DNA of 64,000 nt from Pseudomonas tensinigenes (GTDB taxonomy: Bacteria; Pseudomonadota; Gammaproteobacteria; Pseudomonadales; Pseudomonadaceae). The stretch lies in assembly GCF_014268445.2 (NCBI RefSeq), contig NZ_CP077089.1, positions 4,085,501-4,149,500 on the forward strand, in the 5' to 3' direction. The position numbers were made by a program, and so were the translations under genes. The notes beneath the pieces were generated by a model. The model was not told the origin of the DNA and made no database searches. It saw only the letters and a program-made list of their open reading frames with translations. Shown here one piece after another: positions 49,064-50,471 of this stretch. The stretch's first letter is position 1; each line of letters opens with the position of its first letter.

Positions 49064-49447
49064 CCCTCACCCTAACCCTCTCCCAGAGGTAGAGGGAACT
49101 GACCGCGCTGAATGTGCAAGTTGCACCGACTTGAGATACCGAGTCGAACTCAGGTTTGAAGAGCACAAAGATCGGCTCCCTTTCCCCCTCGCCCCTTGGG
49201 GGAGAGGGAACTGACCGCGCTGTATGTGCAAGTTGCACCGACTTGAAATACCGAGTCGAACTCTGGCCTGGAAGTACATGGAGATCTGCTCCCTTCCCCC
49301 TCGCCCCTTGGGGGAGAGGGAACTGACCGCGCTGAATGTGCAAGTTGCACCGACTTGAGATACCGAGTCGAACTCAGGTTTTGAAAGGCCTGGAGATCTG
49401 CTCCCTTCCCCCTCGCCTCCTTTGGGGGAGAGGGCTGGGGTGAGGGG
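49064..49447. repeat. Long CCCTCACCC repeat, array of three units of 112 bp
   Basis: Units with GAACTGACCGCGCTG, then TGCAAGTTGCACCGACTTGA and the core GATACCGAGTCGAACTC repeat with GAGGG markers beginning at 49092, 49204 and 49316, exactly 112 bp apart. The core is the reverse complement of the one at 33912-34278. Left and right ends carry the same CCCTCACCC/GGGTGAGGG inverted text. Spacer sequence between core and ends differs from the other two loci. Confidence 0.92.
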
Positions 49448-49644
49448 GGAATCGCACTGACACACCGCAAAACCCAAAGCCCCCGCCATCCAGTATTTTC
49501 ATCAATAAACACGAAGCCGTGATCACGTTTAAAGCACACAAACCGTTACGCCATCCTCCCTACAACACCTTGCGTCGTTACCTACGCGTACGCCAGAATC
49601 CGCCGGCTTACACGGCTATGGGCCGGGCTATATCGTTGGCCTGT

Positions 49645-49870
49645 CACTGCAAAACAGTGATCGGGTTTGGTAGCCCGCTTTAAATTGTCGTTGTTGCGAC
49701 ACCGTCGATGCTGTCTCCTTTTTTTGAGGTATGGCTTTGAATGGTGGGCATGCGTGGGGCTCATCCGTGAGCGCCGGGTTACCCAATTTGACCGGTCTAC
49801 CAACCCGCGCATGGCCGCCACCCGCCGTTTGGTAGCGAGGGTGATGGCTCCCATTTTTTCAAATTGGAGC
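49645..49870 (+). ncRNA. Structured 5' leader of the DUF6124-type gene (candidate cis-regulatory RNA)
   Basis: This 226-nt stretch contains in order: hairpin CACTG-CAAAA-CAGTG (49645-49659), hairpin CGGG-TTTGGTAG-CCCG (49662-49677), hairpin GTCG-TTGTTG-CGAC (49687-49700), hairpin GCTCA-TCCG-TGAGC (49759-49772), stem CGGGTT/AACCCG (49775-49780 with 49802-49807), and a 10-bp stem with one mismatch pairing 49814-49823 with 49839-49848. The last hairpin, GCTCC-C-ATTT-TTTC-AAAT-T-GGAGC (49847-49870), contains the ribosome site GGAG of the following gene. CTACCAA at 49797-49803 can pair with TTGGTAG at 49667-49673 or at 49829-49835, so alternative folds are possible. No known riboswitch class was recognised. 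Confidence 0.5.
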
Positions 49871-49877
49871 TTTATCT

Positions 49878-50243
49878 ATGTTCAAAATCACGCCAAATCC
49901 ACCGCCCACCGATCCAATCCCTCACGACCCCGCGCTTAACCCGCAAAAGGTCAAAGAAGCCACCGACCGCGCCCTCGACTACTACCTGCGACCCGAAGCA
50001 CTGGGTGCTCCACCAAGCTCGCCTCCGTTTCGCCCCGTCTACCTTGTCGACCCCACGCTGGATGAAGAAACCCTGTTGGTCGAAGCTTGCGAATCACTTT
50101 CATACGCCCACTCCATGGCCGGTAACATCGCCAACTCAATAGGCGGCCCGGAGCGCAAACCGCTGCTGGCGCTGCAACAGGTGATCATGCTGAACGAGCT
50201 GTTGGTCAATCGACTGCTGGACAAGCTGCGCGTACCGCAATAA
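49878..50243 (+). CDS. DUF6124-type small protein
   Basis: The 121-residue soluble protein starts MFKITPNPPPTDPIPHDP and continues KVKEATDRALDYYLRP, which I recall as the start of the Pseudomonas DUF6124 family. The second half, DEETLLVEACESLSYAHSMA with RKPLLALQQVIMLNELLVNRLLD, is helical and resembles small DUF3077-like proteins. The function is unknown. Its ribosome site is in the 3' arm of a hairpin at the end of a long structured leader, so translation is probably controlled. A terminator-like hairpin follows. Confidence 0.82.
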   Translation: MFKITPNPPPTDPIPHDPALNPQKVKEATDRALDYYLRPEALGAPPSSPPFRPVYLVDPTLDEETLLVEACESLSYAHSMAGNIANSIGGPERKPLLALQQVIMLNELLVNRLLDKLRVPQ

Positions 50244-50258
50244 TCACCAGACCGAATG

Positions 50259-50283
50259 AGTGAGGGGTTACCTGCCCCTCACT
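50259..50283 (+). terminator. Hairpin after the DUF6124-type gene
   Basis: AGTGAGGGG-TTACCTG-CCCCTCACT is a perfect 9-bp stem 15 bp after the stop codon. Only a weak T-run follows. The rest of the gap up to the next start at 50472 shows nothing recognisable. Confidence 0.65.
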
Positions 50284-50471
50284 TTCGCTTCGCCCCTCCG
50301 TCGCTTGATGAGCAAAACCCATCAAGCCATCGTGCTGATCCGCACAGTCACCTTCTTTAATATCCGAATCGCCGTGAGCATTCGTCACTGTTTAGGGTTG
50401 CGATTGGTGCGCGTAAGGCTCGCCTGGCGATCAACGTCCATACTGTGGTTTTCGATACAGTGGACACCGCC

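Follow-up and report, generated by a model that had tools for sequence, protein, structure and literature searches.

A probable C4-type antisense RNA switch before a DUF6124 gene of Pseudomonas tensinigenes, one of many differently keyed copies in the chromosome

Judged from its sequence, every tested feature of which fits the C4 family, the leader of a DUF6124 gene in Pseudomonas tensinigenes is a C4 antisense RNA carrying both target pairs. We consider it very probable that this leader is a chromosomal antisense switch of the C4/immI type. C4 is the textbook phage immunity device that keeps phage P1 dormant. The device is known, whereas the setting, an expanded and key-diversified chromosomal C4 family tied to DUF6124, looks new. 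Our reading rests on the elements of the leader and how they complement one another, on covariation, on a conserved promoter, on the number of copies and their linkage to one gene family, and on purifying selection acting on the cargo. The window is a stretch of 64,000 nucleotides (contig NZ_CP077089.1, positions 4,085,501 to 4,149,500), and positions within the leader are numbered from its first letter.

Rfam covariance models place a full-length C4 antisense RNA (RF01695) in the leader at 67.9 bits against a cut-off of 45, and a c4-a1b1 element (RF03163) upstream of it at 51.7 bits against a cut-off of 46.7 (E values of 4.7e-11 and 3.8e-10, computed for the whole window). The features are collected in Table 1, where the names of the a and b elements follow the annotation of the phage P1 record. 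The leader (49645-49885) has a folding z-score of -3.58, and 0 of 200 shuffled sequences fold as well. In the predicted fold of the C4 segment 49743-49825 (-44.4 kcal/mol), the seven unpaired bases of the junction are precisely CTACCAA, and CCAATTTGA lies in a loop of 14 bases. An earlier note, made from the letters of the window, had described this heptamer, a', as complementary to TTGGTAG on either side, our a1 and a2, and both the positions and the pairing proved accurate. The extended upstream pairing around one bulged T (CGGGTTTGGTAG with CTACCAACCCG) also holds, with a duplex energy of -15.2 kcal/mol for a'/a1 against -8.4 kcal/mol for a'/a2. We found in addition a second key, b', whose pairing with b2 would cover part of the GGAG ribosome site, and a weak b1 that matches b' over only 6 nt.

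Table 1. Positions of the leader, promoter and cargo features within the window.
Feature	Position	Strand	Basis
Half-palindrome TCCGCCGG, candidate operator core	49599..49606	+	directly upstream of -35
-35 TTACAC (commonest letters among copies: TTGTGC)	49608..49613	+	copy conservation
-10 TATCGT (copies TANNNT)	49631..49636	+	copy conservation
c4-a1b1 element (upstream targets)	49630..49681	+	RF03163, 51.7 bits
First hairpin GTCACTG-CAAAA-CAGTGAT and predicted transcription start (~49643)	49643..49661	+	hairpin within c4-a1b1 match
a1 TTGGTAG	49667..49673	+	complement of a'; in second hairpin of c4-a1b1 match
b1 AAATTG	49682..49687	+	6-nt match to b'
C4 antisense RNA	49737..49825	+	RF01695, 67.9 bits; fold; covariation
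GGT in C4	49743-49745	+	fits GGW processing motif
P3 loop holding b'	49778..49791	+	predicted fold; complementarity
b' CCAATTTGA	49783-49791	+	loop of P3
a' CTACCAA	49797..49803	+	unpaired junction, C4 fold
a2 TTGGTAG	49829..49835	+	complement of a'
b2 TCAAATTGG	49859..49867	+	9-nt exact complement of b'; overlaps ribosome site
Ribosome site GGAG	49866..49869	+	read in sequence
DUF6124 gene, 121 aa (putatively controlled cargo)	49878..50243	+	PF19619, E 2e-16
Hairpin past DUF6124 gene, candidate terminator	50258..50284	+	11-bp stem, weak T run

The final hairpin GCTCC...GGAGC of the earlier note is present, and its view that the ribosome site is sequestered agrees with the isolated targets, in which accessibility lies below that of shuffles in 34 of 43 copies of the cassette. 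The 10-bp stem at 49814-49848, which it also described, can indeed be drawn, with eight Watson-Crick pairs, one G-U and one C-A. Since this stem takes up bases of the outer C4 helix (its 3' arm), it would be an alternative to the C4 fold. Its copy-specific support is weak (complementarity 5.29 for self, 4.96 for other copies and 4.08 for shuffled sequences; the self value is reached in 82 of 5000 permutations by complementarity and in 20 of 5000 by energy), and we dropped the stem as a covarying switch. Past the gene, the region 50246-50285 folds at -19.8 kcal/mol; the hairpin there is absent from the terminator scan listing of the window. The DUF6124 gene is probably alone in its transcript. 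On the other side, repeated non-coding blocks (CTCCCTTCCCCCTCGCC...GGGGGAGAGGG) occupy 49201-49440, between the neighboring gene and the cassette.

The leader resembles the c4-icd region of phage P1 in the order of its elements (a1, b1, C4, a2, b2, start codon) and in their similar spacing. In P1, a2 starts 1 nt past the point where the Rfam C4 match ends and the icd start codon follows 47 nt after the a2 start, compared with 4 nt and 49 nt in the window. The P1 region scores 68.8 bits (C4) and 51.0 bits (c4-a1b1), close to the 67.9 and 51.7 bits found here, and its a' lies in the same junction, its b' in the same loop and its a1 in the same a1b1 hairpin. The likeness to the P1/P7 immI class rests on P1 as the phage compared. 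The P1 record has one c4, with icd and the antirepressor gene ant as targets and C1 as repressor, whereas P. tensinigenes has 48 matches, mostly before DUF6124. The window leader is not part of a P1-type immI operon, because the cargo differs: neither icd nor ant lies downstream of it, and the cargo is DUF6124.

According to two papers, C4 of P1 represses the translation of its targets and arises through cleavage by RNase P (PMC8198154, PMC5320573). By its anatomy, which closely resembles that of P1, the same repression and cleavage should hold at the window. We infer that the switch is expressed, processed and repressive, with a decoy role for its upstream part. One promoter (~49608-49636) would give rise to a transcript that contains the a1/b1 leader, C4 and then DUF6124. 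The C4 segment would fold into three stems and would probably be cleaved by RNase P near 49743, C4 RNAs being processed to about 77 nt; a GGW processing motif is reported for the C4 RNAs of P1, P7 and Acinetobacter (PMC5320573). With a' paired to a2 and b' to b2, the ribosome site would be covered and the translation of DUF6124 stopped, whether C4 acts in cis or in trans. At this locus the upstream a1/b1 part, which bears the same target sequences, would compete for C4 or, alternatively, relieve the repression as a short IsrK-like RNA.

The last possibility can be carried further, such that the main product is a short a1/b1 RNA, which switches on the downstream gene by unmasking its ribosome site in trans, and C4 is chiefly a masking segment of the mRNA. 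The Gifsy-1 IsrK-orf45-anrP locus has a similar two-hairpin leader before an antirepressor mRNA, and IsrK, a precedent for the trans activation by a leader RNA of the a1/b1 kind, boosts anrP translation in its short form about 140-fold in trans (PMC4825925). The isrK model (RF01394) matches the window at 49643-49724, the target ribosome site is already partly masked when C4 is absent, and a scan for terminator-like structures lists the a1 hairpin itself (49662-49677). However, the isrK match of 34.8 bits stays below the cut-off of 50, by which we ruled out membership of that family; no terminator is listed between a1b1 and C4 beyond the a1 hairpin, the T run at 49719-49725 lies inside a predicted hairpin, and C4 matches at full length above its cut-off. 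We regard activation of this kind as unlikely. The sar RNA of P22 is another antisense RNA directed at an antirepressor mRNA (PMC12197685).

The genome of P. tensinigenes (6.62 Mb, one contig) contains at least 48 C4 matches, 47 of them over the cut-off, as a lower bound obtained by scoring 150 of 1764 first-look candidates, and at least 44 c4-a1b1 matches, 20 over the cut-off, from 150 scored of 3894 candidates. For 36 of the 48 C4 matches a DUF6124 match with the same orientation, in one case a gutted gene, starts no more than 700 nt downstream, and 38 of the 40 DUF6124 matches in the genome sit behind a C4. The earlier note had stated that genes of this type often have long, similar leaders, and in this it was right: in a second genome (G010), C4 is found upstream of 25 of the 26 DUF6124 matches listed and compared, out of 29, and C4 scored above the cut-off in all 20 named Pseudomonas loci scanned, of 78. 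The gene downstream in the window is of the DUF6124 type, as that note had read it.

Of the 12 C4 copies without a DUF6124 match downstream, two lie before DUF3077 genes, three before Bro-N antirepressor-like genes, four (546134, 755572, 3247507 and 4185900) before small proteins that match no Pfam family, and one (1120263) before a longer ORF; copy 1091666 is followed by a truncated DUF6124-like end and copy 580462 by no long frame. The Bro-N cargo, of the classical phage type, lies behind copies 6609507, 5986101 and 1460668, the last being the sole match in the genome below the cut-off (40.3 bits). The four small proteins share a LIDT...PLD motif with proteins of G010 (loci L246, L247 and L254) and, by this resemblance, form a further cargo type. 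Copy 1120263 is a strong C4 (80.5 bits); the long ORF behind it is set off by a wider gap, and no Pfam family matches its first 130 residues. In the pair of copies 4046103 and 3812939, one C4 precedes a DUF6124 frame that resembles two fused genes and whose second match contains a TAG, and the other copy is then followed by two DUF6124 matches. One c4-a1b1 match (5418915-5418966) has no listed C4 within 120 nt downstream, the next complete copy following some 3.7 kb later; it is possibly a stand-alone target or a deletion.

The covariation analysis and the Rfam search had both been proposed in the earlier note; the latter returned the two families above their cut-offs. In an alignment of 30 of the 48 copies, changes on both sides occur at 14 of the 23 predicted C4 pairs. 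RNAalifold kept the stems P1 and P2 in this alignment and lost P3, which is present in the window's own fold and in the Rfam alignment.

The complementarity is specific to the individual copy. Fixed slices were taken from each of the 48 copies for a', b', the target and the upstream regions, and the longest exact complement was compared between the own slices and those of all other copies. For b'-b2 the mean is 6.92 with the own target and 4.11 with others, and matches of at least 6 nt are found in 37/48 copies, compared with 7.3% of other pairs. Own and other means are 6.27 and 4.75 for b'-b1 (30/48 vs 18.5% of other pairs), 7.19 and 4.18 for a'-a2 (47/48 vs 12.3%), and 7.42 and 5.03 for a'-a1 (48/48 vs 28.9%). 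The own-target preference was reached in 0 of 10,000 permutations for each of the four pairings, b1 being the weakest of them across copies. A check of a1-a' in a fixed register, without a search for the best site, found 81% of cells paired in 43 copies versus 64% when permuted (0/5000). The best 30 of the 36 C4 matches in G010 gave own and other means of 7.83 and 4.27 for b'-b2 and of 7.03 and 4.30 for a'-a2, with b'-b2 matches of at least 6 nt in 26/30 vs 10.9% of other pairs and a'-a2 matches of at least 7 nt in 30/30. Among the 78 named Pseudomonas loci, which hold 30 distinct b', b'-b2 reaches 6 nt in 27/30 vs 9.7%, b'-b1 does so in only 16/30 distinct keys vs 19.8%, and a' is nearly uniform and discriminates little (4 and 2 of 5000 permutations). 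The mutually exclusive pairings that the earlier note had suspected in a regulatory RNA track one another across the 48 copies here and the 30 of G010.

This self-preference is real on average yet not exclusive, and strict orthogonality is disfavored. Ranked by the combined a' and b' duplex energy, a copy's own target comes first in 33/48 rows (median gap 1.6 kcal/mol); ranked by the longest b'-b2 match, it comes first or ties in 31/48 and comes first without a tie in 24/48. There are 47 distinct b' slices among the 48 copies, and a further pair of copies, 2046811 and 3390565, shares TTCTAGAGTC. As nearly every copy has its own b' key, a switch can be expected to act chiefly on its own gene.

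These comparisons bear on two other explanations. The earlier note had classed the leader as an attenuator, riboswitch or thermosensor, and a leader that senses a ligand or temperature would agree with the strong fold, the mutually exclusive pairings and the partly hidden ribosome site. The leader matches C4 at family score instead, and its hypervariable loop tracks its complement, unlike an aptamer. Variability is highest in this loop and its complement changes with it, the reverse of what a conserved ligand pocket would show. The Rfam scan of the leader matched no riboswitch or thermosensor class, although a new class without conserved sequence could escape such tests. On the Rfam match and the loop variability we rejected these classes, and a sensing leader appears extremely improbable.

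The other explanation is that the C4 RNAs act chiefly in trans on other RNAs, of incoming phages or of the host, with DUF6124 as an incidental neighbor. In Acinetobacter baumannii, many C4-like RNAs with differing specificity regions are expressed; the Group 1 sRNAs likewise form a multicopy chromosomal family with the C4 fold, and apparently are processed from longer transcripts (PMC5320573, as far as its available text goes). Cross-pairing between copies is also possible inside the P. tensinigenes genome. On the other hand, 36 of 48 C4 matches lie directly upstream of one gene family and, on average, a matching b2 lies at the ribosome site of that family. The targets in A. baumannii are discussed as possibilities in the available part of the same source, whereas most copies here adjoin their own target and have complementary sites on both sides. 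We find a chiefly trans-acting role most unlikely.

The promoter of the cassette is also conserved. In an alignment anchored on the 44 c4-a1b1 matches of the genome, the -10 hexamer has the form TANNNT (T in 40, A in 44 and T in 40 of 44 copies), the first three letters of the -35 hexamer are T in 42, T in 36 and G in 32 of 44, and the spacer is 17 nt. The offsets of both hexamers from the a1b1 match are identical to those of the annotated P1c4 promoter, whose -10 is TATAGT. The alignment predicts a start near 49643 in the window, 7 nt past the -10, and not past ~49830, where, according to the earlier note, a start would remove most of the leader. A generic promoter scan of the window found no site at this leader, because the hexamers are poor consensus matches. 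The motif TCCGYCGG occurs in the 60 nt upstream of 31/44 a1b1 copies, the window included, and adjoins the -35 in two otherwise differing flank classes. It is a candidate operator for a shared regulator, though shared descent could also account for its conservation.

Comparison of keys and cargo shows that keys move independently of the genes that they precede: near-identical DUF6124 genes carry unrelated keys, and do so also where two species have the cassette at one and the same site. Among 17 protein pairs that are more than 85% identical, one has the same b' and the other 16 have b' identities of 0.11-0.50. Of 115 pairs of named loci with coding DNA at least 93% identical, which are not independent pairs, 57 have different b' (identity up to 0.6) and 44 have matching b' (over 0.8). 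In copies 3008634 and 3010979, strong homology begins shortly 5' of the start codon, at +124/+128 from the C4 start. At the window's site in a second species (G019), the DUF6124 protein is 99% identical over the 103 residues covered, C4 and c4-a1b1 both score above the cut-off, and the key is different, with b' CCTATTGCAG opposite b2 CTGCGATAGG and one G-U pair. The key has therefore been replaced in concert at its sites. Twelve methyltransferase loci were compared; DUF6124 is upstream in P. tensinigenes and G019, and no DUF6124 lies within 1500 nt in the other ten, so the cassette comes and goes. In G011 and G016 the second neighbor is also common and other ORFs fill the cassette site. This cassette-free intergenic site is a variable spot, with ORFs at L299 1004-1426 and L298 1310-2533, which we take to be a 140-aa ORF recalling YafO-type toxins and a GGDEF-like gene.

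We surveyed 149 Pseudomonas genomes, P. tensinigenes included, and found DUF6124 in 118 and C4 in 138; at most 38 DUF6124 and 27 C4 candidates per genome were scored, so that high copy counts are lower bounds. In a class-wide gammaproteobacterial sample of 274 genomes, DUF6124 occurs in P. tensinigenes only (0/273 others) and C4 in 17/273 others, with 1-6 copies each; neither was found in 14 control genomes. A tblastn search with the window protein gave one match in 50,697 phage records, in Pseudomonas phage DVM-2008, where DUF6124 adjoins prtR and C4 is also present, and none in 72,556 plasmids. DUF6124 is encoded at 75 IMG/VR loci, of which 36 are no more than 2 kb away from a contig end by the listed lengths, and C4 was found in all four of these 75 loci that were scanned. 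Phage carriage of DUF6124 thus exists, and the family is not purely chromosomal.

The cassettes might then be prophage fossils without present function. The cargo is truncated in copies 1091666 and 3390565, copy 580462 has no long frame, three copies precede the Bro-N genes, and DUF6124 occurs at the IMG/VR loci described above. Against this, the median dN/dS of DUF6124 is 0.139 over 629 pairs (36 sequences, the window's closer relatives), indicating purifying selection; the phage and plasmid records hold almost none of these genes (1/50,697 and 0/72,556), and the window's neighbors, by our own naming, look like ordinary genes. Promoter, keys and start spacing are kept in dozens of copies, the even spacing of start codons arising partly by construction because the selection rule preferred an ATG 40-66 nt after C4 (copy 1420585 has a TTG start at offset 59). 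We consider a fossil origin without function very unlikely.

An AlphaFold model of DUF6124 (pLDDT 76.9, pTM 0.47) has a confident helical hairpin and a poorly placed N-terminal part. Neither the best Foldseek match of this model (E 1.1) nor one PDB sequence (E 0.91) is significant, and no function was therefore inferred. For one cargo protein a match to DUF3077 (3.1e-10) and a weak one to DUF6124 (0.014) were obtained. Comparisons of DUF6124 with DUF3077 and with the small orphan proteins of the cargo did not show shared ancestry (hhalign probabilities 4.7, 4.3 and 0.1). A literature search, to which subscription papers and supplements were out of reach, found no paper on DUF6124, and DUF3077 appears with Pseudomonas as an incidental mutation in P. 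putida. No report of a C4-DUF6124 linkage was found within this search, and an additional file of PMC2864571 may hold notes on it.

A more far-reaching reading, which we put forward tentatively and consider doubtful, is that the dozens of C4 switches of a Pseudomonas chromosome form a library of private locks and keys, in which key and cargo modules are swapped. Such a library would be an RNA-based incompatibility or immunity system derived from a phage heteroimmunity device. Through the action of C4 in trans, the key already in the cell would silence any cassette or phage that arrives with an identical key, whereas a new key would be expressed on entry. The absence of key avoidance within genomes speaks against incompatibility. 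Identical b' slices occur in 1/1128 pairs within P. tensinigenes, 2/435 within G010 and 2/1440 between the two genomes, and b' slices sharing at least 8 nt in 4, 7 and 9 pairs, respectively; in the slices of these two genomes we found no avoidance beyond baseline diversity.

The antisense switch proposed here is a phage immunity device copied dozens of times in one chromosome and present across most of the genus sample. With it, DUF6124 gains a control logic that can be tested, and dozens of natural antisense pairs become material on how RNA specificity diverges. They also raise the question of why one bacterium keeps so many separately addressed switches.
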